From the NCBI RefSeq assembly GCF_000246855.1, contig NC_016609.1, positions 7,204,744 through 7,268,743 on the forward strand: DNA of 64,000 nt, given 5' to 3'. Both the position numbers and the translations under genes were made by a program. Under the pieces are notes generated by a model that was given only the letters and a program-made list of their open reading frames with translations, did not search any database and was not told the origin of the DNA. Below, in pieces: positions 12,802 to 50,531 of the stretch. Positions within the stretch are counted from its first letter, which is position 1. Each line of letters starts with the position of its first letter. The DNA is from Niastella koreensis GR20-10 (GTDB taxonomy: Bacteria; Bacteroidota; Bacteroidia; Chitinophagales; Chitinophagaceae).

Positions 12802-12895
12802 CAATTGGCAATAAACAATTAGCAAAATTCCCGGATCCCGGGAATTTTGTATTTATGGCTGTTTGCCTATTGCATATTGGTCATTGCCTGTTGTT
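12802..12895. repeat. Inverted heptad arrays (CAATNNN) around a terminator palindrome, locus 1
   Basis: The left array (12802-12829) consists of four 7-bp units beginning CAATTGG and CAATAAA. The right array (12861-12895) has five units such as TATTGCA and CATTGCC, the complementary form. Between them lies the palindrome at 12824-12848. Unit length is kept at 7 while the last bases vary. Confidence 0.75.
12824..12848. terminator. Palindromic terminator after rng
   Basis: AAAATTCCCGG (12824-12834) and CCGGGAATTTT (12838-12848) form a perfect 11-bp stem with a 3-nt loop, 38 bp after the rng stop. The A and T runs at the ends allow bidirectional use. Confidence 0.7.
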
Positions 12896-13032
12896 TTTCA
12901 GGTAGGTATATAAAAAAAACAGATCGGGTAAGAATACCCGATCGAAATATAAAACCAGAAAGGCGTAGGGAAAAAAGTGAATCAGACATGCCAAAATTAT
13001 CAGTAAAAAACTAACAGCAAAGGATAAATTGG

Positions 13033-13081
13033 TAAGTGTGCAGTTTTGCCAATAAGTGTGCAGTTATTGCCGATAAGTGTG
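13033..13081. repeat. Three short direct repeats, possible mobile-element end remnant
   Basis: TAAGTGTG occurs at 13033, 13053 and 13074. The first two copies extend to TAAGTGTGCAGTTTTGCC-like sequence. The spacing of 20 and 21 bp equals about two helical turns. Multiple short direct repeats near a terminus are a feature of IS21-family elements, but no transposase gene is present. Confidence 0.5.
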
Positions 13082-13201
13082 TAACCAAAATCGTCAAATT
13101 ACCCAGATCGCCTCCCGTTTTTCATTTTTTTGCCTCCTCACTTCCCCTTTTGCATACATAATCAATTAATGTTCTTGCATTAAAGAAAAAGGCCCCGTCC
13201 T

Positions 13202-13302
13202 CAATTGACAATAGGCAAAATTTTAAATTTGAACAGCTCCCAATAGGCAAGGGATCCCGAAATTGGGGGATCCCTTGCCTATTTGCTAATTGTCAATTGT
13301 AT
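13202..13302. repeat. Inverted heptad arrays around a long palindrome, locus 2
   Basis: The outer arms CAATTGACAAT (13202-13212) and ATTGTCAATTG (13289-13299) are perfectly complementary. The inner arms at 13242-13258 and 13267-13283 form a perfect 17-bp stem centred on GGGATCCC, with an 8-nt loop. The flanks are 7-bp units (CAATTGA, CAATAGG; then TTGCCTA, TTTGCTA). The right array reaches the stop codon of the zinc peptidase gene, so it may also terminate that gene. Confidence 0.8.
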
Positions 13303-13991
13303 TAATCCCTGCTTCTGCCGCCCAGGAAAATCATTATATATTTTACCAGCGTAGCTATAGAAGCCAAAGCAGCCACCACATACGTCAGGGCAGCCCATTT
13401 AAGCGCGTCTTTTGCCTGTGGGTACTCCCTGGCATCGGTAATATTGCTGCGATTTAACCAGGCTAAAGCCCTTCTGCTGGCATCCAGCTCAACCGGCAAT
13501 GTAATCACTGAGAATAAAGTAGTTAGGCCAAACAGGATAATGCCTGCCAGTAATAAGCCGGGGAACACATGGATCATAAATACGCCCAGTAACAGGATCC
13601 ACTGCACAATACCCGAACTGAACATTACCACCGGCACCAGCTTGCTCCTGAGCGTTAGCCATTGGTAAGCATTGGCATGCTGTACCGCGTGGCCGCATTC
13701 GTGGGCCGCCACAGCCGCAGAAGCCACTGATATACCATTATATACGTCTGGGCTGAGGTTCACTGTTTTAGAGGCCGGATCGTAGTGGTCGCTTAAAAAG
13801 CCATCAGAAGATCTTACCTGAACGTCATATATACCATTATCGCGTAACATTTTCATTGCCACTTCCCTACCCGTTAAACCGGCCGTCAGGGGCACCTTGC
13901 TGTACTTCGCAAATTTGCCTTTCAGCACCCCCGACACCAACATACTGATCACTAAAAACAGGATCGAAATCAACCAAATTTGTGGTGTCAT
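13302..13991 (-). CDS. Membrane zinc metallopeptidase (YugP family)
   Basis: 229 residues. One N-terminal transmembrane helix (about 4-24) is followed by a soluble part with the zincin motif HECGHA (about 98-103), whose two His and Glu bind zinc and activate water. Further helices occupy about 120-170 and 195-222. LSPDVYNGISVASAAVAAHECGH-like context is typical of the YugP / DUF zinc metallopeptidase group. The substrate is unknown. Two repeat-bounded terminators lie beyond its end, opposite rng. Confidence 0.88.
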   Translation of the reverse strand: MTPQIWLISILFLVISMLVSGVLKGKFAKYSKVPLTAGLTGREVAMKMLRDNGIYDVQVRSSDGFLSDHYDPASKTVNLSPDVYNGISVASAAVAAHECGHAVQHANAYQWLTLRSKLVPVVMFSSGIVQWILLLGVFMIHVFPGLLLAGIILFGLTTLFSVITLPVELDASRRALAWLNRSNITDAREYPQAKDALKWAALTYVVAALASIATLVKYIMIFLGGRSRD

Positions 13992-14530
13992 TTTTCTTAC
14001 TCTTTATTTAATTAATAACAATAATCTATCAAATCAGTTACCAATTAATTTGAGTATTTTTTACGCCATTTTTCGTCAGAAATAGGGGTACTTTTTGTCA
14101 TTATGTTAGCGTATAATCGCGGTAGGCTGACATTTTATCACAAGGGGTTTGACCGATTTCTTAAAATTGTATTAAAATTTGATTATCAATGCCTTATGGC
14201 ACTAATTAACAAAAACGGGCAATCGTTTATAGGGTTTTTAAATTTATTCACAACCCCAAAAAATAATTTTGTTATGTGGCGCTTATTTGTAATTTAGTGC
14301 AAGAATTTAATGGGTTAGTAAGTAAGGGGTCAACAGTAATGTTGGCCTTTTTACTTTTAAGAAAAAGCCCCTCTTTTACCCCCTCGTTTTTACTACTGTT
14401 TTTCGGTTATCTCATCATCAGAAATGAAATGCTTTAATCCTTCATTTATCATAACTATCATACCACCCTCCACGCTGTTTTAAATCTTCATTCATCATCT
14501 CATCTTCTCTTCATTCATTAACTTTATCGT
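13992..14530. other. AT-rich intergenic region between divergent zinc peptidase and radA genes
   Basis: 539 bp with low GC. A 64-codon frame (14103-14297) has no family features and an AT-driven composition, so I treat the region as noncoding. A TAACTTTA box (14519-14526) lies directly before the radA ATG but too close for a usual start point. Confidence 0.6.
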
Positions 14531-15907
14531 ATGGCTAAAGTTAAAACAGCATTCTTTTGTTCTAATTGTGGATATGAAAGTGCAAAATGGTTAGGTAAAT
14601 GTCCATCATGCGGAACCTGGAATACATTTGTTGAAGAAGTAATTTCAAAACCCTCTGTTAAAAAAGAAAATGGCTGGGATGATTATCACGAAGAAACAAA
14701 ATCAACCCGCACCATTCCATTAAGCAGCATCACCAGCAGCGAACAGGTTCGCATTACTACATCCGATGCAGAACTTAACCGCGTATTAGGTGGCGGCATA
14801 GTGCCGGGGAGTATAGTATTGATCGCTGGTGAACCAGGTATAGGTAAATCGACGCTGTTTTTACAAAATGGTTTACAGCTACAGAATAAAACTGTGTTAT
14901 ATATCAGCGGCGAAGAAAGCGAACAACAAATAAAGATGCGGGCCGACCGCCTGAATATCAAAAACGATAACTTTTACCTGCTTACAGAAACAGTAACGCA
15001 AACAATTTTCCAGGAGATCAAGAAATTAAAACCTCACCTGGTCATTGTTGACTCCATTCAAACTATTCAATCGCCATACATCGACTCGTCACCGGGAAGC
15101 ATATCCCAGATCAGGGAGTCGGCTGCCGAGTTTCAACGCTTTGCCAAGGAAACCAATACACCGGTATTCCTTATTGGCCACATCACCAAAGATGGAAGCA
15201 TTGCCGGTCCCAAGATCCTGGAGCATATGGTTGATACCGTACTGCAGTTTGAAGGCGACCGTCATTACGCCTATCGAATTCTACGAACCATCAAGAACCG
15301 GTTTGGCAGCACATCTGAGTTGGGTATTTATGAAATGACCGGCGGAGGAATGCGCGTCGTTAATAATCCAAGCGAAATATTAATGACGCCAAAAGAAGAC
15401 CGCCTGAGTGGTATTGCCATTGCCGCAACTATTGAAGGCATGCGTCCATTGTTGATTGAAGTACAGGCATTGGTTACCCAATCTGTGTACGGAACACCAC
15501 AACGTACGGTATCAGGTTTCGATCTGCGGCGCTTACAATTACTGCTGGCGGTACTGGAAAAGAGAGGAGGCTTTCATTTCGGCGTTAAAGATGTTTTTTT
15601 GAACATTGCCGGCGGTTTGAAGGTAGAAGACCCCTCGATCGATCTCGCCGTTTTATGCGCTCTCCTGAGCTCCTACGAGGATGTCCCATTACCGCAGCAT
15701 GTTTGTTTTGCCGGCGAAGTGGGATTGAGCGGGGAAGTACGAGCCGTTCATCGCGTAGAACAACGTATAGCAGAAGCCGAAAAACTCGGTTTTGAAAAAA
15801 TCATCGTTTCGCGGTACGGACAAAAATCAATCGGGAAACAATCCGGTAACATTGAAGTAATATCCATGGGCCGGGTTGAAGAAGTTTATCAGTATTTGTT
15901 TCAATAA
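14531..15907 (+). CDS. radA: DNA repair protein RadA
   Basis: 458 residues, full length. It has the N-terminal C4 zinc finger (C10, C13, C24, C27), Walker A GEPGIGKST (100-108), the RadA-specific KNRFG (255-259), and a C-terminal Lon-protease-like domain without catalytic residues. RadA is a hexameric helicase-like ATPase that promotes branch migration during RecA-mediated recombination and natural transformation. The ComF-like gene follows 31 bp later, giving a DNA repair/uptake pair. Confidence 0.97.
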   Translation: MAKVKTAFFCSNCGYESAKWLGKCPSCGTWNTFVEEVISKPSVKKENGWDDYHEETKSTRTIPLSSITSSEQVRITTSDAELNRVLGGGIVPGSIVLIAGEPGIGKSTLFLQNGLQLQNKTVLYISGEESEQQIKMRADRLNIKNDNFYLLTETVTQTIFQEIKKLKPHLVIVDSIQTIQSPYIDSSPGSISQIRESAAEFQRFAKETNTPVFLIGHITKDGSIAGPKILEHMVDTVLQFEGDRHYAYRILRTIKNRFGSTSELGIYEMTGGGMRVVNNPSEILMTPKEDRLSGIAIAATIEGMRPLLIEVQALVTQSVYGTPQRTVSGFDLRRLQLLLAVLEKRGGFHFGVKDVFLNIAGGLKVEDPSIDLAVLCALLSSYEDVPLPQHVCFAGEVGLSGEVRAVHRVEQRIAEAEKLGFEKIIVSRYGQKSIGKQSGNIEVISMGRVEEVYQYLFQ

Positions 15908-15938
15908 GGCCTGATGAAGTAGCAGTTAAACAACTGCT

Positions 15939-16634
15939 ATGTTAAAAAACGAATTTCATTCTTTAATACATCTCTTCCTCCCCCATCACTGTGCCGGCTG
16001 CGGCAGTGATATCATGAGCCGGCAACAGGCATTATGTATGCATTGCATAAACCGGTTGCCGGTAACGGGGTTTCAACTGCATGCCAACAACCCGGTAGAA
16101 AAAATATTCTGGGGCCGCATGCCTGTCACCGCTGCCGCCAGTTACCTGTACTTCTCAAAAGACTCGTTGTTACAACACATAGTGCATGAGTTAAAGTACA
16201 AAGGCAACAAAGAGCTGGGATTATTCCTGGGCCGCAAAATGGGCGAAGCCTTGTTACAAACCCATCGCTTTCATGATATCGATGCCCTGGTGCCATTACC
16301 ACTATTTGCGGCCCGGCAACGAAAACGGGGTTATAACCAGGCGTCGCTTCTTTGCAGAGGCATAGCGGGCGTTTTATCACTTCCCGTATTGGAACAGATA
16401 ATTCACCGCCGCACTTCCAGCGAAACACAAACAAACAAGAACCGCATCAACCGCTGGCTGAATATGCAGGGCAAATTCGAATTACAGCAACCAGATGCCA
16501 TTAATGGCAAACATATATTATTGGTTGATGATGTAATAACCACCGGCGCCACCCTGGAGGCCTGTGGCCAGGAACTGTTAACCGCCCCCAATACCCGCTT
16601 AAGCATTATGACAATGGCCTTCACAGTAAAATAA
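15939..16634 (+). CDS. ComF family protein (phosphoribosyltransferase fold)
   Basis: 231 residues. An N-terminal zinc ribbon (CAGCGSDI then CMHC) is followed by a double-zinc-type linker and a PRTase domain with the PRPP loop ILLVDDVITTGATL near 192-205. ComF in Gram-positives supports DNA uptake together with the ComFA helicase; in Gram-negatives (GntX) the role is less clear. It lies just downstream of radA, which supports a link to recombination or transformation. Confidence 0.88.
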   Translation: MLKNEFHSLIHLFLPHHCAGCGSDIMSRQQALCMHCINRLPVTGFQLHANNPVEKIFWGRMPVTAAASYLYFSKDSLLQHIVHELKYKGNKELGLFLGRKMGEALLQTHRFHDIDALVPLPLFAARQRKRGYNQASLLCRGIAGVLSLPVLEQIIHRRTSSETQTNKNRINRWLNMQGKFELQQPDAINGKHILLVDDVITTGATLEACGQELLTAPNTRLSIMTMAFTVK

Positions 16635-16688
16635 ACACAAACGCAGCGGCGTTTTAACTGTATCTGAAAACGTGTATTTTTACAGAAC

Positions 16689-18083
16689 ATGAAATATATA
16701 CTTGTTGCTTTACTGCTTACCGGCATCCTGATCTCCTGTAAAAAGGAATCATTCATAACCAGCAGCACGGCATCGCTGAGTACCAGCACCGACAGCCTAC
16801 ATTTTGATACCTTATTCACTACCACAGGCTCTACAATCAGGTACTTTCGTATTTACAATAACAATAACCAAAAGCTGCGTTTGAGTAAAGTGGCCCTTAA
16901 AGGGGGCAATACATCTTACTTCAGGATCAATGTTGACGGTACACAAGGCCCCGAAGTGAATGATATTGAAATGGACGCCAACGACAGCATTTATGTTTTC
17001 GTAACTGTGAAGATCGATCCTACCGCTGCCAACCTGCCCTTTGTAGTGCAGGACAGCATCTCCATAGATTATAACGGCAATCGTCGCTGGATCCAATTGG
17101 ATGGCTGGGGACAAAATGCCAGTTTTATGCGCGCAAAAGTTATTACCGGCAGTGTTTCCTGGACCAACACAGTTCCCTATGTTATCCTAGGTGGTTTACT
17201 CGTCGATAAAAACTCAACCCTTACCATCGAAAAAGGATGCCGCATCTATCTGCACGCCGATGCCCCCTTTGTGGTTGATGGCACGCTGAAAGTTACCGGT
17301 GAAAAATACGACAGCACCCGGGTGGTATTCAGAGGCGACCGGCTCGATGATCCGTATCGCGATTTCCCCGGCGGCTGGCCCGGCATTTATTTCCGCGAAA
17401 CCAGTAAAGACAATACCCTGCAATATGCCAATATCATTAATGCCTATCAGGGTATAGTAGCCGAAAAGCCATCAGTAAATGCCAACCCCAAAGTATTCCT
17501 TAGCGAATGCGTGGTTGATAATTGCTATGATGCCGGCATCCTGGGCGCCCAAACAAATATCAAAGCCCAAAACTGCCTGGTGAGCAATTGCGGAAAAAAC
17601 ATCTTTTTAGGGTATGGCGGCACTTATGATTTTTCACATGTAACAGCCGCTACCTGGTCCAATACCTACCTCCTGCATAAAGATCCCGTACTGGCAGTAA
17701 CCAATTATTACAAAGACGGCAACACTATAACCACGTCAAACTGTACAGCCAGTTTTAAGAATTGCATCTTCTGGGGCGAAAACGGCACTACCGAAGACGA
17801 AGTAGTAACTGATAAACAGGGAACATCTGTTTTCAATGTCAGCTTTCAGAACTGTTTATGGAAGGTGAAGAACCAGCCAGCCAATGTTAATGCTGTCAAC
17901 ATCACGGCCAACCGGTCCCCCGAGTTCGATAGCATTAATACCCAGTTAAAATATTACAATTTCCGGTTGAGCGATAGATCACCTGCTCTTAATATTGGCG
18001 CCGACCTGGGCATTACCAACGATCTCGATGGAAAACCAAGACCCATTGGCAAACCTGACTTAGGCTGTTATGAAAGACAATAA
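16689..18083 (+). CDS. Lipoprotein with choice-of-anchor Q / parallel beta-helix features
   Basis: 464 residues with a lipoprotein signal peptide (LLTGILISC, Cys about 17). An Ig-like N-terminal part carries repeated short strands. The middle (about 170-420) has turns such as NCYDAGILGAQ and AQNCLVSNCGKNIFLG, typical of a right-handed beta-helix. The C-terminus SPALNIGADLG followed by LDGKPRPIG and PDLGCYE is the choice-of-anchor Q signature. It is probably a surface-exposed binding or glycan-degrading protein, but no catalytic residues are evident. Confidence 0.75.
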   Translation: MKYILVALLLTGILISCKKESFITSSTASLSTSTDSLHFDTLFTTTGSTIRYFRIYNNNNQKLRLSKVALKGGNTSYFRINVDGTQGPEVNDIEMDANDSIYVFVTVKIDPTAANLPFVVQDSISIDYNGNRRWIQLDGWGQNASFMRAKVITGSVSWTNTVPYVILGGLLVDKNSTLTIEKGCRIYLHADAPFVVDGTLKVTGEKYDSTRVVFRGDRLDDPYRDFPGGWPGIYFRETSKDNTLQYANIINAYQGIVAEKPSVNANPKVFLSECVVDNCYDAGILGAQTNIKAQNCLVSNCGKNIFLGYGGTYDFSHVTAATWSNTYLLHKDPVLAVTNYYKDGNTITTSNCTASFKNCIFWGENGTTEDEVVTDKQGTSVFNVSFQNCLWKVKNQPANVNAVNITANRSPEFDSINTQLKYYNFRLSDRSPALNIGADLGITNDLDGKPRPIGKPDLGCYERQ

Positions 18084-18084
18084 C

Positions 18085-18205
18085 CAATTGACAATTGACA
18101 ATAAGCAATTGGCGAGGGCCTCCGAATTACGGAATCTCCTTCTTTTTGCAACCTTCCGAATTTTTGGGTTTTTGTCTATTGCCTTTTGTCCATTGCCAAT
18201 TGTTT
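18085..18205. repeat. Inverted heptad arrays (CAATNNN), locus 3
   Basis: The left array (18085-18112) has four 7-bp units, two of them CAATTGA. The right array (18171-18205) has five units such as ATTGCCT and ATTGCCA. Read as arms, 18085-18109 and 18178-18202 pair over 25 nt with five mismatches. The GC-rich middle (18113-18140) lies between. The element starts 2 bp after the lipoprotein stop codon. Confidence 0.75.
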
Positions 18206-18224
18206 ACCGTTAACCATATTTTTG
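18192..18224 (+). promoter_or_regulatory. Probable promoter of the glutathione peroxidase gene
   Basis: The -7 box TATTTTTG (18217-18224) is a full match; ATTG (18192-18195) with a 21-nt spacer is a possible -33 element. The -33 element lies in the right heptad array. The leader would be about 75 nt. Confidence 0.4.
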
Positions 18225-18306
18225 CATGGAAGCAACCAATTTAATATCATCTTTGTATAGTACAGGTTGCTGGTCAACAAACACTATACTTTAAATTTTA
18301 TCAATT

Positions 18307-18822: not shown

Positions 18823-18845
18823 GATCTTGTAACGCATTATATTAA

Positions 18846-22350: not shown

Positions 22351-22392
22351 AATAGCCAACAACCAATTGACAATTGATTGTTGGCTATTGAC
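22351..22392. repeat. Heptad array with terminator-like hairpin, locus 4
   Basis: Six 7-bp units; AATAGCCAACAA (22351-22362) and TTGTTGGCTATT (22378-22389) are perfect 12-bp inverted arms, and the 15-nt loop itself consists of CAATTGA-type units. It lies between the RicT-like and Bax-inhibitor genes and could end the first transcript. Confidence 0.7.
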
Positions 22393-24105: not shown

Positions 24106-24294
24106 GTAAATCTTTTTAGAGTTTATGAATAAGTTTATCAATGGCCTTCTGCCTATAGCATCGTTAGTCGCAATTTAATATTATTCGTTTCATGTGGTTG
24201 ATTATTTTTTTGGGTGCGAATTGATAAATGGTTTGGCGCCCCCATAATTATTCGTTTACCTTACAGTGAAACTTGTTTAACAAAAATTACACAT

Positions 24295-27162: not shown

Positions 27163-27166
27163 GCAT

Positions 27167-27313
27167 AATGTGCTAATTAGATAATGTGATAATTAGATAG
27201 TTGAAATACAAAAAAGGGCGAGGCCTCTGCCAATTAGCAGAGGCCTCGCCTTTTCATTATCACAACCTGTCCCGATTTATCGGGATGATCGAATTAACTA
27301 ATTATCACATTGG
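27167..27313. repeat. Octad arrays in inverted orientation around a terminator
   Basis: 8-bp units AATGTGCT/AATTAGAT and AATGTGAT/AATTAGAT form a 16-bp tandem pair at 27167-27198. The complementary array stands at 27291-27313. AATGTGATAATTAG (27183-27196) and CTAATTATCACATT (27298-27311) are perfect 14-bp arms. The terminator (27217-27256) and a small CCCGATTTATCGGG hairpin lie between. Confidence 0.75.
27217..27256. terminator. Terminator between M16 protease and RND operon
   Basis: GGCGAGGCCTCTGC (27217-27230) and GCAGAGGCCTCGCC (27237-27250) form a perfect 14-bp stem with a 6-nt loop. A's precede and T's follow, so it works for both convergent units. Confidence 0.85.
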
Positions 27314-35293: not shown

Positions 35294-35328
35294 TTGAACT
35301 TTGAACCTTGAATTGTGAACCGTGAACT
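35294..35328 (+). repeat. Heptad array TTGAACC x5
   Basis: Five consecutive 7-bp units, TTGAACT/TTGAACC first, then variants with one or two changes. It ends 17 bp before the start of the following gene. Confidence 0.75.
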
Positions 35329-37590: not shown

Positions 37591-38823
37591 ATGGCTAATA
37601 TTTCTCCTTTCAAAGCCCTGCGCCCGCGTCCTGAGCTGGCCAAGCAGGTTGCCTCACGCCCTTACGATGTGCTGAACTCAAAAGAAGCCCGTGAAGAAGT
37701 AGTAGGTAATCCACACTCGTTCCTGCACATCACCAAATCAGAGATCGATCTGCCCGAGGATCTGGATATCCACAGCCAGCCGGTGTATGACAAAGCCAAA
37801 GAGAATATTGCAGCGTTTATTCAACGCGGTATCTTATTCAGGGAAGATAAACCCTGTTATTATATTTATCAATTGATAATGAATGGCCGTAGCCAAACAG
37901 GTTTGGTAGCCGCCAGTTCGGTTGATGATTATGAGAGCGACGTTATTAAAAAACACGAATTCACCCGTCCTGAAAAAGAGCAGGACCGCATCAATCACAT
38001 CGCCACAACCGGCGCGCAAACCGGTAATGTGTTCCTGGCATACCGCAACAATGCAGAGGTGGATACCCTCATCGAAAACTGGAAAGACACCCATACCCCG
38101 GTATATAATTTTGTAGCCGACGACGCTATCAGTCATACCATTTGGGTAATTACCGACGATGCAGTGAATGCGCAAATAACCAACCTGTTCAAAACACAGA
38201 TCCCGCAAACATATATTGCCGACGGCCACCACCGCGCCGCCTCTGCTGCCAAAGTGCGCAAAGCATTGGGCGCCCAGGCAAAAGCAGAAGCTGATTATTT
38301 CCTTACAACCCTGTTCCCCTCGAACCAGTTGTACATCATGGATTATAACCGCGTGGTGAAAGATCTGAATGGCTTAACCGAAGCCGCCTTACTGGAAAAA
38401 TTGGGCGCTTCATTTACCATTGAAAAATCAGCCGCTGCAGTAGCGCCGGCTAACCTGCATCAGTTTGGAATGTACCTGAAAGGCCAGTGGTATACCCTTA
38501 CTTCCAAACCCGGCACCTTTACAACCGATCCCATTGGCGTGCTGGATGTATCTATTTTGTCCAACCTGGTATTGGATCCTTTATTAGGCATCAAAGACCA
38601 GCGTACCGACAAACGCATCGACTTTGTTGGCGGTATCCGCGGTTTAGGTGAACTGGAAAAAAGAGTGAACAGCGGCGAAATGGCCGTAGCCTTCAGCCTG
38701 CACCCCGTTACCATTCAACAGCTGTTCGACATTGCCGATAGCGGTAATGTTATGCCGCCCAAAAGCACGTGGTTTGAACCGAAGTTGCGCGATGGTCTTT
38801 TAACGCACCTGATTTATAGCTGA
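37591..38823 (+). CDS. DUF1015 family protein
   Basis: 410 residues from the ATG at 37591 (MANISPFKALRPRPELAKQV), the usual family start. The frame extends ten codons upstream to a TTG that is unlikely to be used. Conserved features are ASRPYDVLNSKEARE, YIADGHHRAASAAKV and a C-terminal FSLHPVTIQQLFDIAD. The family occurs next to serine biosynthesis genes in many phyla, suggesting a role in serine or one-carbon metabolism, but no enzymatic activity is established to my knowledge. Confidence 0.9.
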   Translation: MANISPFKALRPRPELAKQVASRPYDVLNSKEAREEVVGNPHSFLHITKSEIDLPEDLDIHSQPVYDKAKENIAAFIQRGILFREDKPCYYIYQLIMNGRSQTGLVAASSVDDYESDVIKKHEFTRPEKEQDRINHIATTGAQTGNVFLAYRNNAEVDTLIENWKDTHTPVYNFVADDAISHTIWVITDDAVNAQITNLFKTQIPQTYIADGHHRAASAAKVRKALGAQAKAEADYFLTTLFPSNQLYIMDYNRVVKDLNGLTEAALLEKLGASFTIEKSAAAVAPANLHQFGMYLKGQWYTLTSKPGTFTTDPIGVLDVSILSNLVLDPLLGIKDQRTDKRIDFVGGIRGLGELEKRVNSGEMAVAFSLHPVTIQQLFDIADSGNVMPPKSTWFEPKLRDGLLTHLIYS

Positions 38824-39053
38824 TCAGTTAACCAGTTGACGAGTTAACCAGGAAGTTGATAGAGGAAGAAAACCAGGTAAGAGGTTGACGGGTTAACATG
38901 TTGACAAGTTAACAGGTAATACATAGAAAGCCGGAAGGGCAGTTTCTTAGGGACTGCCTTCCGGCTTTGTTAGTTCTTTAGTTTTTTAGTTCGTTCCCTC
39001 ATCGTCAATGTTTTAACGAGTCAACCTGTTAACCTGTCAACTTGTTAACTTTT
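38824..39053. repeat. Octad arrays (GTTAACNN/GTTGACNN) in inverted orientation around a terminator
   Basis: 8-bp units run at 38825-38865 and 38884-38917 and in complementary form at 39022-39053; a further 8-bp array (TTAGTTCT type) stands at 38970-38993. The arms 38892-38917 and 39024-39049 pair over 26 nt with two mismatches although they lie 106 bp apart. The DUF1015 terminator is between them. Confidence 0.8.
38927..38968 (+). terminator. Terminator of the DUF1015 gene
   Basis: AAAGCCGGAAGGGCAGT (38927-38943) pairs with ACTGCCTTCCGGCTTT (38953-38968) with a single bulge. Confidence 0.75.
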
Positions 39054-42092: not shown

Positions 42093-42183
42093 CTGGTTTT
42101 CCGTATATAACCCGTATATGTCCCGTACATGTCTCGTATATGTTCCGTTCCTTTATAGATACGGAATATATACGGGAAACCAG
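42093..42183. repeat. 11-bp tandem array enclosed by a 17-bp inverted repeat
   Basis: Five 11-bp units at 42101-42155 have the consensus CCGTATATGTC. The outer arms CTGGTTTTCCGTATATA (42093-42109) and TATATACGGGAAACCAG (42167-42183) differ from perfect complementarity by one base. The left arm includes the first half of unit 1. Confidence 0.8.
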
Positions 42184-42420
42184 CATAACACTTACCTGTC
42201 AAATAAGAAACGGTATATAAGCCGGTACGAAGCAAAACCCAACCTGGGATACTTAATCCGGGACAAGTACCGGTCAATCACATCTGATCTAGTCGAACTG
42301 CTCAAAACTGCATCTGTTTTATAAGGCCGTTTTGGAAGAAATTTGTTTTACGCAGAACGCTTAACACGCCCTCACGCGAAGGGTACGGCCCGAATAAACC
42401 AGGGGATTCGGACAAAGCGT

Positions 42421-42448
42421 TAAGCCTTAAGCATTCAGCCTTTAGCCT
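42421..42448 (+). repeat. Heptad array TAAGCCT x4
   Basis: Four 7-bp units, TAAGCCT/TAAGCAT first, then TCAGCCT and TTAGCCT. It ends 12 bp before the decarboxylase ATG. Confidence 0.65.
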
Positions 42449-42460
42449 AAAAAGTTAGCT

Positions 42461-43944: not shown

Positions 43945-43959
43945 GGGATTGCCGCGACG

Positions 43960-44015: not shown

Positions 44016-44053
44016 CACTCAGAAAGACTTGTAGCACCAAAAAATTTTAGTTT

Positions 44054-45118
44054 ATGGAACTTACCGATGAGATAATGGTTCAGAGAACAACCAAATCAAG
44101 ATTACCAGAAGTTGATTTTAACAAGCTGGGGTTTGGAAACTATATTTCCGACCACATGCTGATCTGCTATTATAAAAACGGACAATGGGAAACGCCCAGT
44201 ATTGTTCCCTTTGGCGATATTTCCTTAAGCCCTGCTACCCTGGCCCTGCATTACGGACAATCGGTGTTTGAAGGATTGAAAGCATTCAGGCTCGATGATG
44301 GCCGCGTGAACCTGTTCCGCGTGCAAAAACATTATGAAAGAATGCTGCGTTCTTTAAGCCGCATGTGCATGCCGGGCATACCCGAAGAAATTTTTGTAGA
44401 AGGGCTTCGCCGCCTGATTGAAGTGGATAAAGACTGGTTACCTACGCAGCCTGGTGGCGCATTGTACGTTCGGCCCATCATGTTTGCCAGCGAAGCCAAA
44501 TACGGCGTGAAGATCTCTGATGAATATTGCTTTATTATGTTTACCGGGCCTGTTGGTTCTTACTTCAGTAACCCATTGCGGTTAAAAGTAGAAACCGATT
44601 TCACCCGGGCAGCTAAAGGTGGTACCGGTTCCGCAAAATGCGCCGGTAACTATGGTGGTGCTTATTACCCCACACAAAAAGCAAAAGAAGCCGGCTTTGA
44701 CCAGGTATTATGGACAGATGCCCGCGAAAACAAATACATTGAAGAAAGCGGCATGATGAACGCCATGTTCGTGATCGACGGCGTACTGGTTACCCCACCT
44801 ACCAGCGATTCCATCCTGGCCGGTGTAACCCGCGATAGTTTGCTCACACTGGCAGATGACCTGGGTATTCCCAATGAAGCCCGCCCCATAGCCATAACAG
44901 AGCTGGAAAACGCCTTCCGTCATAATACCATTTCTGAAGCATTTGGCGCCGGTACAGCCGCCGTGGTAGCGCCTATTGCCACTATTCACTTAAATGGCAT
45001 TGACCACCATTTACCGGCTTATAACGATAACTCCATCATGTTCCAGTTAAAGAACAGGCTGGAAGCTATCCGTAAATGCCAGGAAGAGGACAAACACGGC
45101 TGGAACTTCCTGTTCTAG
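44054..45118 (+). CDS. ilvE: Branched-chain amino acid aminotransferase IlvE
   Basis: 354 residues, the longer (eukaryote-like) BCAT subtype of fold-type IV PLP enzymes. YGQSVFEGLKAFR, YVRPIMFASE and the PLP-lysine region GTGSAKCAGNYGGAYYP are conserved, as is the late EAFGAGTAAVVAPI. It catalyses the last step of isoleucine, leucine and valine synthesis and the first step of their breakdown. It is flanked by a promoter-like box and a perfect terminator and so appears monocistronic. Confidence 0.95.
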   Translation: MELTDEIMVQRTTKSRLPEVDFNKLGFGNYISDHMLICYYKNGQWETPSIVPFGDISLSPATLALHYGQSVFEGLKAFRLDDGRVNLFRVQKHYERMLRSLSRMCMPGIPEEIFVEGLRRLIEVDKDWLPTQPGGALYVRPIMFASEAKYGVKISDEYCFIMFTGPVGSYFSNPLRLKVETDFTRAAKGGTGSAKCAGNYGGAYYPTQKAKEAGFDQVLWTDARENKYIEESGMMNAMFVIDGVLVTPPTSDSILAGVTRDSLLTLADDLGIPNEARPIAITELENAFRHNTISEAFGAGTAAVVAPIATIHLNGIDHHLPAYNDNSIMFQLKNRLEAIRKCQEEDKHGWNFLF

Positions 45119-45138
45119 ATCATATATTACTTTATAAT

Positions 45139-45177
45139 AAAAGGACCGGTTCACCCCCAGGTAGATCGGTCCTTTTT
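45139..45177 (+). terminator. Terminator of ilvE
   Basis: AAAAGGACCG (45139-45148) and CGGTCCTTTT (45167-45176) form a perfect 10-bp stem with an 18-nt loop. Confidence 0.8.
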
Positions 45178-45178
45178 C

Positions 45179-45186
45179 TATCTTTG
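45179..45186 (+). promoter_or_regulatory. -7 promoter box before the SDR gene
   Basis: TATCTTTG (45179-45186), immediately behind the ilvE terminator; leader about 17 nt to the ATG at 45210. No clear -33 element. Confidence 0.4.
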
Positions 45187-45209
45187 GCAACAACTTATAA
45201 CCTTTCAAT

Positions 45210-45902
45210 ATGCCTAAAACCATTATTATAACAGGCGCTAATGGGAACCTGGGTACTGCCGTAGTAAAAAAATTCCTGGACCAGGACTATAAAGTAATTG
45301 CGGTTGACCATTCGGGTAGCCACCTGGGGTTTGCAGACAGGCATCCCAATTTTGAACTGCATGGTATTGAACTTACCGACGAAGCAGAATGTAAGACCTT
45401 TGTAAACGAAGCCATAGGCCTGTATGGCAATATCGACTGTGCCGTGCTGCTGGCCGGCGGCTTTGAAATGGGCGGCATTGATACTACTGATACTGCCCAG
45501 TTAAGAAAAATGTTCACCCTCAATTTTGAAACAGCCTACCACCTGGCAAGGCCCCTGTTTCAGCATATGCTGCAAAATGGGTATGGCCGATTGGTATTAA
45601 CCGGCGCCCGCCCGGGTTTAAACCTGGAAGAAGGCACTAACAAAATTGCCTATGCGTTAAGCAAATCGTTGCTGTTTAACCTGGCTGAGATCTTAAATAA
45701 AGAAGCCAAAGGGAAAAATGTTACGGTATCGGTAATTGCTCCCAGCACCATCGATACAAAGCCCAACCGGGATAGCATGCCCGATGCGAAATTCGAGAAC
45801 TGGGTAAAACCCGAAGCCATTGCAGATGTACTGTCGTTTATTTGTTCTGACAGCGGAAATGTATTGCGGGAGAGTATTTATAAAGTTTACAACAACGCAT
45901 AA
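45210..45902 (+). CDS. Short-chain dehydrogenase/reductase
   Basis: 230 residues of the classical SDR fold. The nucleotide-binding motif is TGANGNLG (about 7-14), the structural motif is AVLLAGGFEMGG in place of NNAG, and the active-site Tyr-Lys pair lies in YALSKS. The usual catalytic Ser is replaced or shifted (LVLTGARPG). The substrate is unknown. It is monocistronic between two terminators. Confidence 0.88.
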   Translation: MPKTIIITGANGNLGTAVVKKFLDQDYKVIAVDHSGSHLGFADRHPNFELHGIELTDEAECKTFVNEAIGLYGNIDCAVLLAGGFEMGGIDTTDTAQLRKMFTLNFETAYHLARPLFQHMLQNGYGRLVLTGARPGLNLEEGTNKIAYALSKSLLFNLAEILNKEAKGKNVTVSVIAPSTIDTKPNRDSMPDAKFENWVKPEAIADVLSFICSDSGNVLRESIYKVYNNA

Positions 45903-45905
45903 AAG

Positions 45906-45944
45906 AAAAGAGGAGTTACCCGTAGTGAATAACTCCTCTTTTTT
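45906..45944. terminator. Terminator of the SDR gene
   Basis: AAAAGAGGAGTTA (45906-45918) and TAACTCCTCTTTT (45930-45942) form a perfect 13-bp stem with an 11-nt loop. Usable from both sides. Confidence 0.85.
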
Positions 45945-46089
45945 ATTTACAACCCTGAGTACTTAACAAAGCTTTCAACCTTCCGGTTTTAACCGATAGG
46001 TTTGTACGAATTTAAACACACAGGATCATATACACCGATTAACACAATTTAAGTTCAACTATCTGCCTTTTATTCATCTTGTTCATAGG

Positions 46090-46401
46090 CTATACTTCCA
46101 ACACACTGTTCCAACCCGTAACGCCGTCCGGCTCACGAAACTGGTTCTCTATATCCTCAGCCCACATTCTTTCATCGATAAAAAATTTGTAATGATACTT
46201 TCCGCGTGGCAACATAGGTATCTCTATGGTCCACACCCCATTATTGGCGGGGCGTAAGGTTAACTGGTCATGAGCCCAGTTGTTAAAATCACCAGCCAAA
46301 GCAATCCTGTTTGCACAGGCATTCGTGATGTGAAACTCAATACACTTCTTCCTCTTGTTTACGTAAGGGGATTGATGGTGTTTCATGGAGCCCTCCTTCA
46401 T
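46090..46401 (-). CDS. Stand-alone CBM48/AMPK-type glycogen-binding domain protein
   Basis: 103 residues. The whole protein is an early-set/CBM48-like domain: CIEFHITNACANRIALAGDF, NNWAHDQLTL, GVWTIEIPMLPRGKYHYKFFID, ending EPDGVTGWNSVLEV. These features match the carbohydrate-binding module of isoamylases and of the AMPK beta subunit. No catalytic domain is attached. Such small proteins may bind glycogen-like glucans or act as adaptors. It lies just downstream of the two-component region, but 370 bp separate it from the nearest gene. Confidence 0.8.
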   Translation of the reverse strand: MKEGSMKHHQSPYVNKRKKCIEFHITNACANRIALAGDFNNWAHDQLTLRPANNGVWTIEIPMLPRGKYHYKFFIDERMWAEDIENQFREPDGVTGWNSVLEV

Positions 46402-46772
46402 TTTAGGTGCCTACAAAAAAAATGGTTACTTACTAACTATTACGGATACTGTATAGCTTCAAAGGGTAGCGACACTAGGCATCAAAAGAATAAAGATGTT
46501 TGATTTCCAGGCAGATTGTTCAAGTAAAGGCTAAGATATTGTTGTAAGGATCTGTTCCGGCCTGTTCCAAAAGTTACGATGTTTTAAAAAACTATAAAAG
46601 GAATTGTCCTATTATTTTTCTGTTACTCCTTTAATTGTAAATGAGTGCAAACATCGAAACAAAAATCGTCCTAACCTATGATCTCAATCATATGATTATA
46701 TATGCTAAACCGATTAAAGCGATTTTGTCCGTAGTTAATGTTACATCAATAAAAAAACCATACCTGATGCAT
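46402..46772. other. Intergenic region, AT-rich
   Basis: 371 bp between same-strand genes, very AT-rich, presumably the promoter region of the CBM48-like gene. It contains a direct repeat of CTGTTCC (about 46550-46569). No ORF or stable hairpin is seen. Confidence 0.5.
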
Positions 46773-47039
46773 TTATTTAATAGAGACCAATTTACCTGAG
46801 GTCAGTTGTTGCTTTTCGGGATAGTTATGAAATAAACTGTCGAGGTCGTGCTTCAGGGAGTGAATATCTTTTTGCAGTTGCAGATTTACCGATAATACAG
46901 AGTCGTTTTGCAATAACAATTTATTATTGAAATCAGTCAGTCGTTTATTCTTTTGTAGCAGCACAAAAGCAATTAAACCAAAGCCAATAGCTCCGGCTGC
47001 CAGACATCTTAAAATAAATACTGATTGATTCAATTTCAT
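46773..47039 (-). CDS. Small membrane-anchored coiled-coil protein of unknown function
   Basis: 88 residues: one transmembrane helix (about 9-29, FILRCLAAGAIGFGLIAFVLL), then a predicted coiled coil (about 33-70, with LQKDIHSLKHDLDSL). I recognise no family. It lies 130 bp downstream of the histidine kinase gene on the same strand, so it may belong to the same transcript and could act as a small membrane regulator. This is a neighbourhood inference. Confidence 0.55.
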   Translation of the reverse strand: MKLNQSVFILRCLAAGAIGFGLIAFVLLQKNKRLTDFNNKLLLQNDSVLSVNLQLQKDIHSLKHDLDSLFHNYPEKQQLTSGKLVSIK

Positions 47040-47168
47040 TTATATAATAGAACACCAAATATGCTTTATTATGGTTAAACGATAATTAAACAGGAATTAA
47101 AAAGCAATTAAACAACGCTTAACAATTGTTAAAGTAAGGGTTTAACCTGATCCCTGTACGTGTGCCGT

Positions 47169-48566
47169 TCAGGCTTTTGCTGCAAACGCCTTTATAGAGG
47201 GCAGGGTGATGGTAAAGGTTGTTCCCGTTTCCTTTGAAGAATGAACTTTAATGGCGCCCTTGTGCATATTTATGATGCGCTGGGCCAATGGCAGGCCTAA
47301 CCCGAACCCTCTGATAGGGGAGGCCGTGGCGCTGCGGTAAAAAGGTTGAAAAATATGTTCTGATTCAGCTTCGGTAATGGGATCGCCGAAATTCCTGAAC
47401 TCTACAATTACGTTGTCGTTCTCAAACAGCAGGTTGATCATTACCTGGTAGTTGTAGGAAAATTTACAGCCATTGTCTGCAATATTACGCAGTGAACTAT
47501 ACAACAGGTCTACGTTCCCAAAAACCAGGAAGGCTTTTTCATCATCGGGAAAATCGCCAAACTCCAGCTGAACTTTATACGCTTCACTGTTCTTTTGTAC
47601 ATCGGCAGTTACCTTCAGCAGTACCTCATCAATGCGCACTTCGCTTAATTCAATACCGCCTTCGGTACCGGTTTTCGCAATCTCCAGCAGGCTCTTGGTA
47701 AGCTGCTGCATTTGCTGTACGTCTTCATGCACCGAGGTTATTACCTGTTTATACTCTTCATCGCTTCTTTTCTTTTGCAGGGTCACTTCCAGCTGGCTCA
47801 ATATTGAGGTGAGCGGGGTTGACAGTTCGTGTGAGGCATTGGAAATAAAACGCCGCTGTACCAGGAAGTATTCCTGTAACCGGTCGAGCAATTCATTGAA
47901 CGTGTTGGCCAGCTGGTTCAGTTCATCCTGTGTACTTCCTGCCTGGATGTGGTGCGTGAGGTTTTGCGAGGTAATATGTTTTACGTCGTAAATGATCTGC
48001 TTAATTGGTTTTACCAGCTGTACCGAAAAGGCGTACCCTACCATCAATGCAACGGCAATGCCTATGAACAAACAGGTGAGCAGAATGTCGCGCAGGTCTT
48101 TTAGCCGCTGCCAGCCGTCCACATCGTAGGCGGCCACCACTACTACAATGCGGCTTCGGTTATCGGTGTAATGAAAGGCCAGCGCGTCGCGCTTGTTCAC
48201 CGTAAAATATACGTCGTGTTTTACCCGGGCCTGCTTCAGGATCTCTTTATCGGGCAGAATGGAATCGATATCGCTGGCATTATACCGGTACACAGGGCGG
48301 TCGAGGTAGTCGAAGATCACCACGCTTTTCTGGTTCAGGGTAAAGGCTGAGGCCGAATCGATGTGGTACAGGAAGGCGCGGCTGCTGTCGTTATCGCCCA
48401 GATAACTGAACAACTGGCCATCGTTATTAGCCCTTCCTCTCAGCCGCTTTTTAAATGCTTCTGTCCGTTGCAGGGAGGTAAAATAATGAACGGAGATACT
48501 TAATACCAATAGTATTATGGTAACAAGTAACGCAAATAACGCGGTTATTTTGAATTTGATTTTCAA
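47169..48566 (-). CDS. HAMP-domain sensor histidine kinase
   Basis: 465 residues starting at TTG (48566), one base after the response regulator stop. Transmembrane helices (about 7-28 and 160-182) enclose a periplasmic sensor of about 130 residues. HAMP follows (183-235), then HisKA with phospho-acceptor His246 in SNASHELSTPLTSI, and the HATPase domain with NIADNGCKFS and GFGLGLPLAQRI. With the adjacent regulator it forms a classical OmpR/PhoB-type two-component system. The signal is unknown. Confidence 0.95.
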   Translation of the reverse strand: MKIKFKITALFALLVTIILLVLSISVHYFTSLQRTEAFKKRLRGRANNDGQLFSYLGDNDSSRAFLYHIDSASAFTLNQKSVVIFDYLDRPVYRYNASDIDSILPDKEILKQARVKHDVYFTVNKRDALAFHYTDNRSRIVVVVAAYDVDGWQRLKDLRDILLTCLFIGIAVALMVGYAFSVQLVKPIKQIIYDVKHITSQNLTHHIQAGSTQDELNQLANTFNELLDRLQEYFLVQRRFISNASHELSTPLTSILSQLEVTLQKKRSDEEYKQVITSVHEDVQQMQQLTKSLLEIAKTGTEGGIELSEVRIDEVLLKVTADVQKNSEAYKVQLEFGDFPDDEKAFLVFGNVDLLYSSLRNIADNGCKFSYNYQVMINLLFENDNVIVEFRNFGDPITEAESEHIFQPFYRSATASPIRGFGLGLPLAQRIINMHKGAIKVHSSKETGTTFTITLPSIKAFAAKA

Positions 48567-48567
48567 C

Positions 48568-49257
48568 CTAAGGGTTTTCTTTCAGTATATAGCCCATGCC
48601 TACCTGCGTATGTATAAGCCGGGTTTCAAAATCCTTATCCAGTTTTTTACGCAGGAAGTTTACATATACATCAATTACATTGGTCTTGGTATCGAAATCG
48701 ATATCCCATACATTCAGGGCAATATCTGCACGGGACACTACCCGGTTCTTATTCCTGATCAGGTATTCGAGCAACTGAAATTCCTTGGCAGTAAGTGAAA
48801 TGGGCTTATCGGCCCGGGTTACCTCCTTACTGTCGAGGTTCATAACGAGATCGGCCACCTTTAGAATATTGCCCGTTGGGATATTGTGATAGATCCTTTT
48901 TAACAGGGCCCTGATGCGCACCAGCAGCTCTTTAAAATCGAACGGCTTTACAATATAATCATCGGCGCCGGCATCAAAACCTTCGATCTTATCGGCGGTG
49001 GTGTTGAGGGCTGTTAGCATAACCACCGGAATGCGTTCACTGTGGCGGCGGATCTCCTTACACAGTTCATAACCATTTAAACCGGGCAGGTTAATATCCA
49101 GGATAATGAGGTCGAACGGATAGGTTTCGAACAATTTCTTTCCAATAAGGCCATCATAGGCAACTTCTACATGATAGCCCTGTTCGCTAAGTCCTTTCTT
49201 TAATGACTCTGCTATCTTTTTTTCATCCTCTACCAGTAAAATTTTTATTTCTTCCAT
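48568..49257 (-). CDS. OmpR/PhoB-family response regulator
   Basis: 229 residues. The receiver domain has Asp11 in the acidic pocket, phospho-acceptor Asp54 (LIILDINLPG), Thr82 and Lys104. The winged-helix DNA-binding domain (about 130-228) carries VSRADIALNVWD and NVIDVYVNFLRKKL. It is the first gene of the pair and is followed by the kinase with a one-base gap. A TAACTTTA box (minus strand, 49300-49293) may be its promoter. Confidence 0.95.
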   Translation of the reverse strand: MEEIKILLVEDEKKIAESLKKGLSEQGYHVEVAYDGLIGKKLFETYPFDLIILDINLPGLNGYELCKEIRRHSERIPVVMLTALNTTADKIEGFDAGADDYIVKPFDFKELLVRIRALLKRIYHNIPTGNILKVADLVMNLDSKEVTRADKPISLTAKEFQLLEYLIRNKNRVVSRADIALNVWDIDFDTKTNVIDVYVNFLRKKLDKDFETRLIHTQVGMGYILKENP

Positions 49258-49353
49258 AGCTATAAATTCATGGACGCAAAATTCACAAATAATAAAGTTA
49301 CCGGGTATGTTTACTCAATTTAAGGAATTAAAAGTAAATTAAAATTGATAACC

Positions 49354-49394
49354 CAGCTTCAGGCCGCAAGCTTTAAGCTATAAGCAATACACCA
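49354..49394 (-). repeat. Heptad array GCTTNNN, copy B of a dispersed repeat
   Basis: Read on the minus strand, five units of the GCTTNNN type preceded by TGGTGTATT, matching 35 of 41 bases of the copy at 43960-44000 in the opposite orientation. Confidence 0.75.
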
Positions 49395-49423
49395 GTGCGC
49401 AACCGGGGGCACGTACCTGCTTT

Positions 49424-49465
49424 CACTTCAACATTCGATATTCGACATCCAATATTTTGCATTTT
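49424..49465. repeat. Heptad array ANATTCG
   Basis: Six 7-bp units, among them ACATTCG/ATATTCG at 49431-49444, ending next to the stop codon of the GAPDH-like gene. Confidence 0.55.
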
Positions 49466-49466
49466 T

Positions 49467-50450
49467 CTACCCCATCAAACTTAACCAATCAATCATCCGC
49501 GTAGTAAACCCATACTCATTATCAAACCAGGCTATCAGCTTAACGTGGTTGCCGATAACGGAGGTAAGGGTGCCATCGATAACGCAGGAATGGGTATTTC
49601 CTTTAATATCCAGCGACACCAGGGGGTCTTCGGTATATTCTATAATTCCTTTATAATCGTTTTTAGCGGCTGTTGAAAACAGCTTGTTTATGGCTTCACG
49701 GGTTGTTTCCTCCTGCAGCTGAATGGTAAAATCGGCCAGGGCGCCATTGGCTACAGGTACCCGGGTTGAAACCGAGGCTATCTTCCCCTTCATGGCAGGC
49801 AATAACCGTTCGAGCGATTGTTGCAGGTCAATTTCTACCGGAATAATGGATTCGGCAGCTGCGCGGCCACGTCTGAACTGTTTATGCGGCGCATCAACCA
49901 GCTCCTGCCGTGAGGTATAGGAATGTAAAATATTACACTGTACCGATTTGATGCCAATGGCGTTCAGGATGTACAAAATATGGGTACTGCAATTGGTCAT
50001 GCACCCACCGGGCGAAACAATTGTTTCTTCCGCGGTAAGGGCGTGCTGGTTAAAACCATACACCAGCAGGGGAATATCGTTTGAACCGGTAGTTGACAAG
50101 AGCACTTTACGGGCGCCGGCCTTTATGTGCTGTTCGGCAGCAGCGCGGTTACTGAAAAGCCCAGAGCATTCCAGCACCACATCTATGTCCAGGTCTTTCC
50201 AGGGCAGCATGTAAGGATGTTGTTGCTGATACGCTTTCACCAGTTTGCCGTTCACTTCAAGTGTTTCGGGTTTATGGGTAATACCGCCGGCGAAGGTGCC
50301 GTACACAGAATCGTACTTTAACAGATAAGCCAGGTTATCGGCATCCATGATATCGTTTACCGCAACCAGCTCAACTTCGTTGCTATCGATCAGGCGTCTG
50401 AACAAAAGGCGGCCAATACGGCCCATACCGTTGATTGCAATTCTCATCAT
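49467..50450 (-). CDS. Divergent glyceraldehyde-3-phosphate dehydrogenase paralogue
   Basis: 327 residues with the complete GAPDH layout. The NAD-binding motif is NGMGRIGR (7-14). Catalytic Cys150 lies in SPGGCMTNC in place of SNASCTTNC, and His176 in NILHSYTSRQ in place of VHAYT. RGRAAAESIIP and WFDNEYGFTTRMID at the C-terminus match the family. The active-site residues are kept, but the surrounding motif is altered, so this is probably not the main glycolytic enzyme; erythrose-4-phosphate dehydrogenase or another aldehyde dehydrogenase role is possible. Its neighbours are signalling genes, not glycolysis. Confidence 0.85.
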   Translation of the reverse strand: MMRIAINGMGRIGRLLFRRLIDSNEVELVAVNDIMDADNLAYLLKYDSVYGTFAGGITHKPETLEVNGKLVKAYQQQHPYMLPWKDLDIDVVLECSGLFSNRAAAEQHIKAGARKVLLSTTGSNDIPLLVYGFNQHALTAEETIVSPGGCMTNCSTHILYILNAIGIKSVQCNILHSYTSRQELVDAPHKQFRRGRAAAESIIPVEIDLQQSLERLLPAMKGKIASVSTRVPVANGALADFTIQLQEETTREAINKLFSTAAKNDYKGIIEYTEDPLVSLDIKGNTHSCVIDGTLTSVIGNHVKLIAWFDNEYGFTTRMIDWLSLMG

Positions 50451-50483
50451 ATAGTTTCAAAATGAGTTGCAAATATAAACCAA

Positions 50484-50503
50484 CCCTTCGACTCCGCTCA
50501 GGG
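50484..50503. repeat. CTTCGRCTCCGCTCAGG element, copy 1
   Basis: CCCTTCGACTCCGCTCAGGG, an imperfect palindrome with 16 or 17 bases shared with a copy at 56443-56462. Related sequences are common between genes in Bacteroidota. Confidence 0.65.
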
Positions 50504-50531
50504 CAATAAACAACTGACAATAGGCAAACGC
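50504..50531 (+). repeat. Single heptad array (CAATNNN), locus 5
   Basis: Four 7-bp units, CAATAAA/CAACTGA first, the same word family as at 12802, 13202, 18085 and 22351 but without an inverted partner. Confidence 0.6.

Follow-up and report, generated by a model that had tools for sequence, protein, structure and literature searches.

Intergenic palindromes with seven-base repeat arms in Niastella koreensis and its relatives: a dispersed core and arms that change between copies and species

Why do several intergenic regions in one part of the Niastella koreensis GR20-10 genome consist of 7-bp units with a common CAAT start and changing last bases, and why do some of these arrays face their own complement across a hairpin? 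We addressed these questions for a window of 64,000 nucleotides (positions 7,204,744-7,268,743 of the 9,033,684-bp single-contig genome) and compared its arrays with those of related species, each represented by one genome. The elements work like dispersed palindromes of the repetitive extragenic palindrome (REP) or miniature inverted-repeat transposable element (MITE) type, with arms that behave as fast heptad variable-number tandem repeats. As a working picture, two heptad arrays would flank a centre of very roughly 10-130 bp, the word of the right array often being complementary to that of the left. On balance, and with considerable reserve, we favour the view that these are dispersed, non-coding REP/MITE-like palindromes whose arms would be rewritten by 7-bp slippage and, at least in Pinibacter, be held complementary by template switching.

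Seven-base arrays are a property of intergenic DNA

In the 37 intergenic regions of the window, 14 pairs of CAAT tetranucleotides are spaced by seven bases, compared with a mean of 0.66 and a maximum of 4 in 500 shuffles. At the remaining spacings between 4 and 21, 0-3 pairs were counted, apart from 14 (8 pairs) and 21 (4 pairs). As spacing 7 is not outstanding when all window DNA, coding included, is counted, the signal is an intergenic one. A preliminary description of this DNA had listed five loci with CAAT arrays, and each was evaluated by its best lag-7 segment (1000 shuffles) and its best inverted repeat (100 shuffles). Shuffles reached the observed values in 11/1000 and 1/100 cases at 12802-12895, 4/1000 and 0/100 at 13202-13302, 2/1000 and 0/100 at 18085-18205, and 1/1000 and 0/100 at 22351-22392, while the fifth locus, 50504-50531, is chance-like (94/1000 and 95/100). 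The strict 7-bp period, the intergenic placement and the inverted arms were thus borne out by the window shuffles and by the lag spectra given below. By eye, an array faces its complement across a GC-rich hairpin at loci 1 and 2 and loosely at locus 3; at locus 4 the stretch in question is the loop of a short stem, and no array faces a complement (Table 1). Besides the CAAT words listed in the preliminary description, the window also contains GAACNNN, AAGCNNN and 8-bp GTTAAC-type arrays.

Statistics for N. koreensis cover ~1.23 Mb, of which ~0.79 Mb was picked around CAAT arrays; the unselected 440 kb was analysed separately. Three CAATNNN units followed by a further CAAT occur 147 times genome-wide, versus once for the reversed pattern, and this four-unit pattern is present in 10/10 genomes of the genus (Niastella/Longitalea), 12 to 313 times each and least often in N. 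yeongjuensis. A word-free scan for lag-7 self-similar segments (score >=14) found 36 intergenic segments in N. koreensis (440 kb), 19 in N. yeongjuensis (400 kb) and 22 in N. soli (400 kb). Called genes, some of them probably spurious, held another 16, 6 and 14, so that in N. koreensis 16/52 segments fall inside gene calls. At intergenic lags 4-6, 9, 10, 12 and 13 these species have 0-3 segments each; lag 8 gave 14, 9 and 3 and lag 11 gave 3, 8 and 11, 8-bp and 11-bp units forming classes besides the 7-bp one. Counted by region, the search for 7-bp autocorrelation that the preliminary description had proposed came out positive, with lag 7 in 29 of the 236 intergenic regions of the 440 kb (Markov control, 1), lag 8 in 15, and lags 9, 10, 11 and 13 in 5, 0, 4 and 0.

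In eight stretches of Pinibacter aurantiacus and its relative Chitinophagaceae bacterium 26-R-25, five of which were selected around AATT arrays, lag-7 segments were found in 55/114 intergenic regions (control 0). Other loci, mostly from Chitinophagaceae, gave a weaker signal in 15/376 regions, and a small, 50-kb sample of E. coli gave none in 25. Niastella/Longitalea and Pinibacter-type genomes give the strongest signal, and 9-21% of intergenic regions in the genus hold arrays, which is the base rate. The signal peaks in palindrome arms, where lag-7 identity is 0.39 (0.26 expected) in N. koreensis and 0.52 (0.29 expected) in three unselected Pinibacter-type loci; one of the two analyses used the CAAT-enriched sample. 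Inverted repeats with a score >=13 were detected in 47/74 real and 0/74 shuffled regions. Coding DNA showed mainly multiples of 3 in its lag spectrum and none of the 7-/8-bp periodicity of the intergenic palindrome arms. With tandem 7-bp units, in excess over other lengths and intergenic, the arrays match the definition of heptameric tandem repeats. Their words are diverse and include AAGCYRT, GTTTCAG, GAAGTAG, GTGAGTG, GGCAGAA, ATTCAAY and CGTGAAA, among others.

A dispersed core with variable arms

The arrays had been set apart from REP and MITE elements on the grounds that whole-element copies were lacking. This distinction is not supported, a dispersed core having been found. TCGCGA, the top-enriched 6-mer of array regions (28/169 vs 12/884, p 8e-15), sits just inside one arm, and an iterated profile yielded a core of ~55 bp (GGCTCGCGAAT…TTGCC) with 17 matches in the sampled genus sequence. 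A sequence-only model (R1), built from 14 copies, gave at least 296 matches in the ten genus genomes, 10-77 per genome, at E<=0.01 and with at most 150 candidates scored per genome. Among 115 other family genomes, an even draw from a larger group, no match was found at E<=0.001 under stricter filters. Also at odds with the claimed distinction, four CAAT-armed elements of N. koreensis share a second centre, in which TTCGCGAA or CTCGCGAA adjoins the arm (6/6 pairs with 0/1000 shuffles as high). A profile from these four seeds returned the seeds and one match at E 0.9, and no further copy in the sampled sequence; in Pinibacter no conserved centre stood out by k-mers.

The arms of the core copies vary. 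Thirty of the best-matching copies were inspected: both arms are arrays in 20, the left alone in 5, the right alone in 4 and neither in 1; 29/30 thus carry at least one array arm, and the heptad words differ among them. The best period is 7 in 26/30 right arms and 28/30 left arms. In 17 right arms strong runs were seen, made of 8 different units in all: the arm usually starts from the final core bases and goes on as CATTGCC, GATTGCC, GTTTGCC, TTCCGCC, CTCTGCC or others. Left and right words can differ inside one copy (L013:16185; position 7,124,969 of N. koreensis). Conservation of copies from end to end, as in a mobile element, had been named as a refuting outcome; the copies share the core and differ in their arm words.

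Turnover at orthologous sites

Further evidence against the claimed distinction from REP and MITE elements comes from sites that are filled in one species and empty in another. The site at 16632-16688 is a short spacer in N. koreensis, soli and yeongjuensis. In vici, caeni, OAS944 and L. luteola it is filled by a core element flanked by heptad arms; populi and L. arenae have heptad DNA there in which no core was scored, and the Hopland metagenome-assembled genome (MAG) has an arms-only remnant. A second site of this kind is listed in Table 1. Conversely, the window's own elements are absent or replaced in most relatives. Element 1 is partly common to soli and the Hopland MAG, the latter having kept the palindrome and the left array without the koreensis right array. 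The site of element 2 is occupied in N. yeongjuensis by an ordinary GCCCCGA terminator-like hairpin, that of element 3 is an 11-31 bp spacer with no element in soli, populi, L. luteola and L. arenae, and that of element 4 has hairpins of other sequence in soli and yeongjuensis. Of the clean insertions between koreensis, yeongjuensis and soli, 20/83 hold lag-7 or lag-8 DNA, some being counted in two comparisons. Since the remaining listed insertions are free of such DNA, insertion and deletion are not special to these elements.

Replacement of words was followed in P. aurantiacus (G020) and bacterium 26-R-25 (G021), which are 87-90% identical over the stretch compared. From 21 array sites taken in the former, 20 were mapped in the latter. 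An inverted repeat scoring >=13 is present in both species at 11 of the mapped sites, eight of which have paired heptad arms in both; the other three are not heptad in both. At the eight sites, mean arm identity is 0.91 within an element and 0.57 between species (centres, 0.42), and by eye the word differs at six, e.g. GAGTTGA vs AATTGAA or AATTAAT vs AATTAGG. As the centre is kept at some sites and not at others, both rewriting and whole replacement occur. Genome-wide word repertoires are species-specific: a 17-base GAGTTGA-repeat probe matched 0 times in G019, 215 times in G020 and 24 times in G021, and a GTTGAAA-repeat probe 70, 40 and 176 times. These counts are overlapping positions, the loci being fewer, and the reversed control is invalid where the reversal equals a rotation.

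How the arms may change

We suggest that a given intergenic site can gain an element, lose it or have it replaced by another, and that arrays inherit their unit length (7 bp, or 8 bp in a second class) while tandem slippage rewrites the sequence of the unit. An array would shrink and then grow again from another seed unit, such as CATTGCC, GATTGCC, GTTTGCC or TTCCGCC beside the same core. Wherever the two arms change jointly, template switching within the hairpin is the likely means by which they remain complementary. Cores may decay or be deleted faster than arms, leaving arms-only arrays of which the window's four elements could be examples; alternatively, these four possibly grew their arms around pre-existing terminator hairpins.

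Both processes had been put forward in the preliminary description, and each fits part of the data. Slippage is consistent with the right-arm runs, whose unit changes between copies. The likeness of neighbouring linkers, the variable part of the units, differs by word, so that the fit of slippage is good for some word classes and poor for others. Adjacent linkers compared with those of other arrays score 0.68 vs 0.17 for GTGA words, 0.35 vs 0.12 for AATT and 0.21 vs 0.08 for CAAT, the CAAT value being inflated by one perfect 16-unit CAATCGG array, and adjacent linkers of CAAT 7-mers are less alike than next-nearest ones. The sharing between next-nearest linkers in CAAT 7-mer and TAAT 8-mer arrays hints at higher-order units of 14 and 16 bp. 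Template switching agrees with the paired arms that differ between Pinibacter and its relative. In the AATT elements of these two species, linkers agree between an element's own arms at 0.83, against 0.61 for swapped arms (0/300 as high). For the CAAT elements of koreensis, a copying of entire units from arm to arm is contradicted: in 30 elements own-arm linker identity (0.58) is not above that of swapped arms (0.61), and a simple inverted duplication of one arm was rejected for them.

Several observations count against slipping and template-switching arms on dispersed palindromes. In the CAAT elements, the linkers found in one arm give no indication of those in the opposite arm. In TAAT 8-mer arrays, adjacent linkers are identical at 0.035, next-nearest at 0.349 and those of different arrays at 0.124; simple slippage predicts the opposite, and the deficit therefore weighs against it. 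In the Pinibacter comparison, two of the eight sites (A12449, A23899) have one and the same word in both species, five pairs with a centre identity >=0.48 have arms that diverge no faster than their centres, and the within-element contrast is partly built in, the best inverted-repeat arms having been chosen for pairing, although none of the 74 shuffled regions reached the score applied. None of the window elements carries the core (best E 3.2), so that what connects them with it is membership of a class. By eye, the listed insertions showed no target-site duplication, for which no systematic search was made. Finally, 40/107 testable Niastella arrays have conserved and variable unit positions at p<0.05.

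Such a unit structure, together with the occurrence of CAAT arrays in all ten genus genomes, would also be expected if a factor recognised the conserved portion of each 7-bp unit (e.g. CAAT), with selection preserving this portion and the linker drifting. We regard such protein-binding arrays as very improbable, given the many unrelated words per genome, their replacement between species at the same site and the runs in which all seven bases are fixed. Selection for structure offers another explanation, in which the elements serve as terminators of transcription or as stems at mRNA 3' ends, periodic words being a tolerated way of building long stems. In the 440 kb of N. koreensis, strong palindromes do favour convergent gene pairs (18/44 vs 4/43 divergent, p 0.001), and elements 1 and 2 centre by eye on terminator-like hairpins. 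The heptad arrays themselves lack this bias, both in N. koreensis (7/49 vs 4/51, p 0.35) and in Pinibacter-type DNA (13/22 vs 9/16, p 1.0), and selection for pairing leaves the 7-bp period and the unmatched linkers of the CAAT arms unexplained. A pure terminator function is accordingly not favoured, and we consider selection for structure improbable.

A more far-reaching idea is that a cell activity with a fixed 7-nt step, e.g. an HUH protein or a polymerase at hairpins, writes and copies heptad words and spreads them between loci. We think this improbable; if true, each species would rewrite its intergenic palindromes in its own vocabulary with the 7-bp grammar fixed. With unit length conserved and sequence replaced, in inverted pairs round a traceable dispersed core and in cultured species, the elements offer a natural experiment for measuring the slippage step, the homogenisation of arms and mobility each on its own.

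A Y1 transposase gene beside an array

One candidate for mobilisation is a domesticated, single-copy Y1 (HUH) transposase that would act on TCGCGA-core elements as a REP-associated tyrosine transposase (RAYT) does, the tetranucleotide of the heptad serving as recognition guide. All ten genus genomes contain one strong PF01797 gene (E 5e-20 or better), with weak matches besides in most. Nine of them have a heptad array immediately upstream of this gene, both arms being scored in five, and among the matches listed the upstream element of N. koreensis and of OAS944 fits the core. N. yeongjuensis has no array upstream of its Y1 gene, and has the fewest CAAT arrays. With ~24 core matches among ~7,600 genes (an estimate from 373 called genes in 440 kb), chance adjacency would be ~0.3%. 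This statistic is post hoc, however, and the adjacency is inherited and so amounts to about one event, in a genus where 9-21% of intergenic regions hold arrays in any case.

Across the family, at least 25 CAAT matches were found in 12/64 genomes with a Y1 match and 1/53 without (Fisher p 0.006), but the cut-off was chosen after seeing the counts (22/64 vs 8/53 at >=5), and the contrast is confounded by phylogeny. The same confounding applies to 20-kb samples, in which lag-7 and lag-8 arrays together gave 9 counts over the 89 regions of ten strong-Y1 genomes and 1 count over the 80 regions of nine genomes without a strong match. Of 15 genomes with a Y1 match at E<1e-30, only the two from the genus reach 25 CAAT matches; genomes with arrays and no Y1 match exist (G022, G051); and just 4/28 readable Y1 loci have an array within 250 bp, two of these in the genus. 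The family-wide data thus weaken the transposase as a general cause, and we judge this role unlikely. Because of the array base rate, and because the genes of relatives are mostly without arrays, the adjacency stays a lead.

The Y1 gene of N. koreensis is at G000:C1:5623007-5623342 and those of relatives are at L201-L210 and L223-L234. It appears to be vertically inherited. The same aro-like gene lies upstream in the ten genus genomes and at 11/12 loci outside, the latter mostly without arrays; as read from the translations, the flanks are a gene ending in chorismate-mutase-like sequence and an aroB-like gene. A Y---Q--HH motif places the genus protein nearest to subclass 1.2 as defined in the part of PMC6006769 drawn on here, which gives no REPs for that subclass. 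In relatives outside the genus, Y/F-H replaces HH.

Comparison with known repeats

The heptanucleotide repeats of Calothrix are presumably those known as short tandemly repeated repetitive (STRR) sequences. A likeness of the present arrays to heptanucleotide repeats of other bacteria, seen in the preliminary description, is supported by the consulted parts of two papers (PMC4692102, PMC4679880). The first of these, which also cites the Calothrix heptanucleotides, describes GGGAATC-type heptameric repeats of Xanthomonas, (GGGANTN)n, which are intergenic, lie nearer the upstream gene, include convergent inverted pairs (70 in one genome and 75 in another), and mostly keep their position between two species while length and sequence vary. 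They resemble the present arrays in their conserved and variable positions, intergenic placement and inverted pairs. They use one G-rich word, with no dispersed core in the parts of PMC4692102 consulted, whereas the present arrays draw on many words per genome, enclose a conserved core and have their words replaced at orthologous sites.

TAACTGA direct repeats occur in Beggiatoaceae, Cyanobacteria and some Bacteroidetes, with other heptamers mixed in, and differ between two close strains mostly by 7-nt indels, according to the part of PMC4679880 used here. Like the present arrays they are intergenic 7-bp tandem units. Unlike them they are direct, mostly located just upstream of start codons in the main genome, and described there without inverted arms of dispersed palindromes. 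The reversed control TAACNNN x4 is itself frequent in N. vici (G008, 120), L. arenae (G001, 105) and L. luteola (45), and these species thus have TAACNNN heptads, which in N. vici and L. arenae recall the TAACTGA repeats.

REP elements and their paired form (REPIN), with the RAYT (TnpA-REP), as presented in the portions used of PMC6006769, PMC3116915, PMC3733652 and PMC2817692, share with the present elements the short dispersed extragenic palindrome, the inverted layout and a Y1 gene beside one copy. As a dispersed extragenic palindrome in many copies, the core agrees with the REP definition. It differs in that the ends of the core consensus (alignment A1) carry neither GTAG nor CGTC, in its hypervariable heptad arms and in its lower copy number, REPs exceeding 100 copies per genome in the part of PMC2817692 consulted. 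Fixed terminal inverted repeats, as in MITEs, are not present, the arm words varying between copies and sometimes between ends. Mutation by template switching at quasipalindromes, as outlined in the consulted parts of PMC8794818, PMC7202029 and PMC8604942, would both generate complementary arms and re-establish them in a single event, yet alone gives no 7-bp period.

An excess of seven-base repeats in bacteria is without an agreed cause, and a polymerase-footprint idea is cited in the part of PMC4692102 at hand. The present elements join the literatures on heptameric repeats and on REP-like elements, such arrays having so far been treated as different things. Our literature search found nothing on heptad palindromes of Niastella or Chitinophagaceae, which does not imply their absence from print.

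Features of the window and further arrays

The coordinates of the window features are given in Table 1. The left array of element 3 comprises five CAAT units, the first of which overlaps a stop codon.

Table 1. Heptad elements, arrays and empty sites in the window (position 1 is its first nucleotide).
Feature	Position	Strand	Description
Element 1	12802..12892	.	left array, terminator-like palindrome, right array
Element 1, left array	12802-12822		CAATTGG CAATAAA CAATTAG
Element 1, palindrome	12823-12849		terminator-like, CAAAATTCCCGGATCCCGGGAATTTTG
Element 1, right array	12866-12886 and further outward		ATTG words
Element 2	13202..13302	.	CAATTGA CAATAGG ... GGGATCCC hairpin ... complementary arm
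Element 3	18078..18205	.	left array 18078-18112, right array 18175-18202
Element 4	22351..22392	.	short hairpin AATAGCCAACAA / TTGTTGGCTATT, loop with CAATTGACAATTG
Locus 5	50504..50531	+	CAATAAACAACTGACAATAGGCAAA, single arm, no inverted repeat
Heptad array	35294..35327	+	GAACNNN
Heptad array	42415..42448	+	AAGCNNN / AGCNTTN
Empty site	16632..16688	.	orthologous spacer with TCGCGA-core element and heptad arms in relatives
Empty site	24125..24234	.	core element in caeni and L. luteola only, of eight anchored relatives

Inverted arrays of 8-bp period (GTTRACNN, GTTAAC-type) lie between 38818 and 39051, at 38818-38851, 38883-38917 and 39015-39051, and represent the second unit-length class; TAATGTGA-type 8-mers are found at 27166-27202. 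Arrays of 11-bp period are present at 47075-47122 and 42101-42148, the latter overlapping a called gene; they are also seen in the soli and yeongjuensis stretches and are recurrent in the genus. Elsewhere in N. koreensis, at ~7,025,046-7,025,322, a heptad hairpin with AAGCYRT words is tandemly triplicated with a period of 97 bp.

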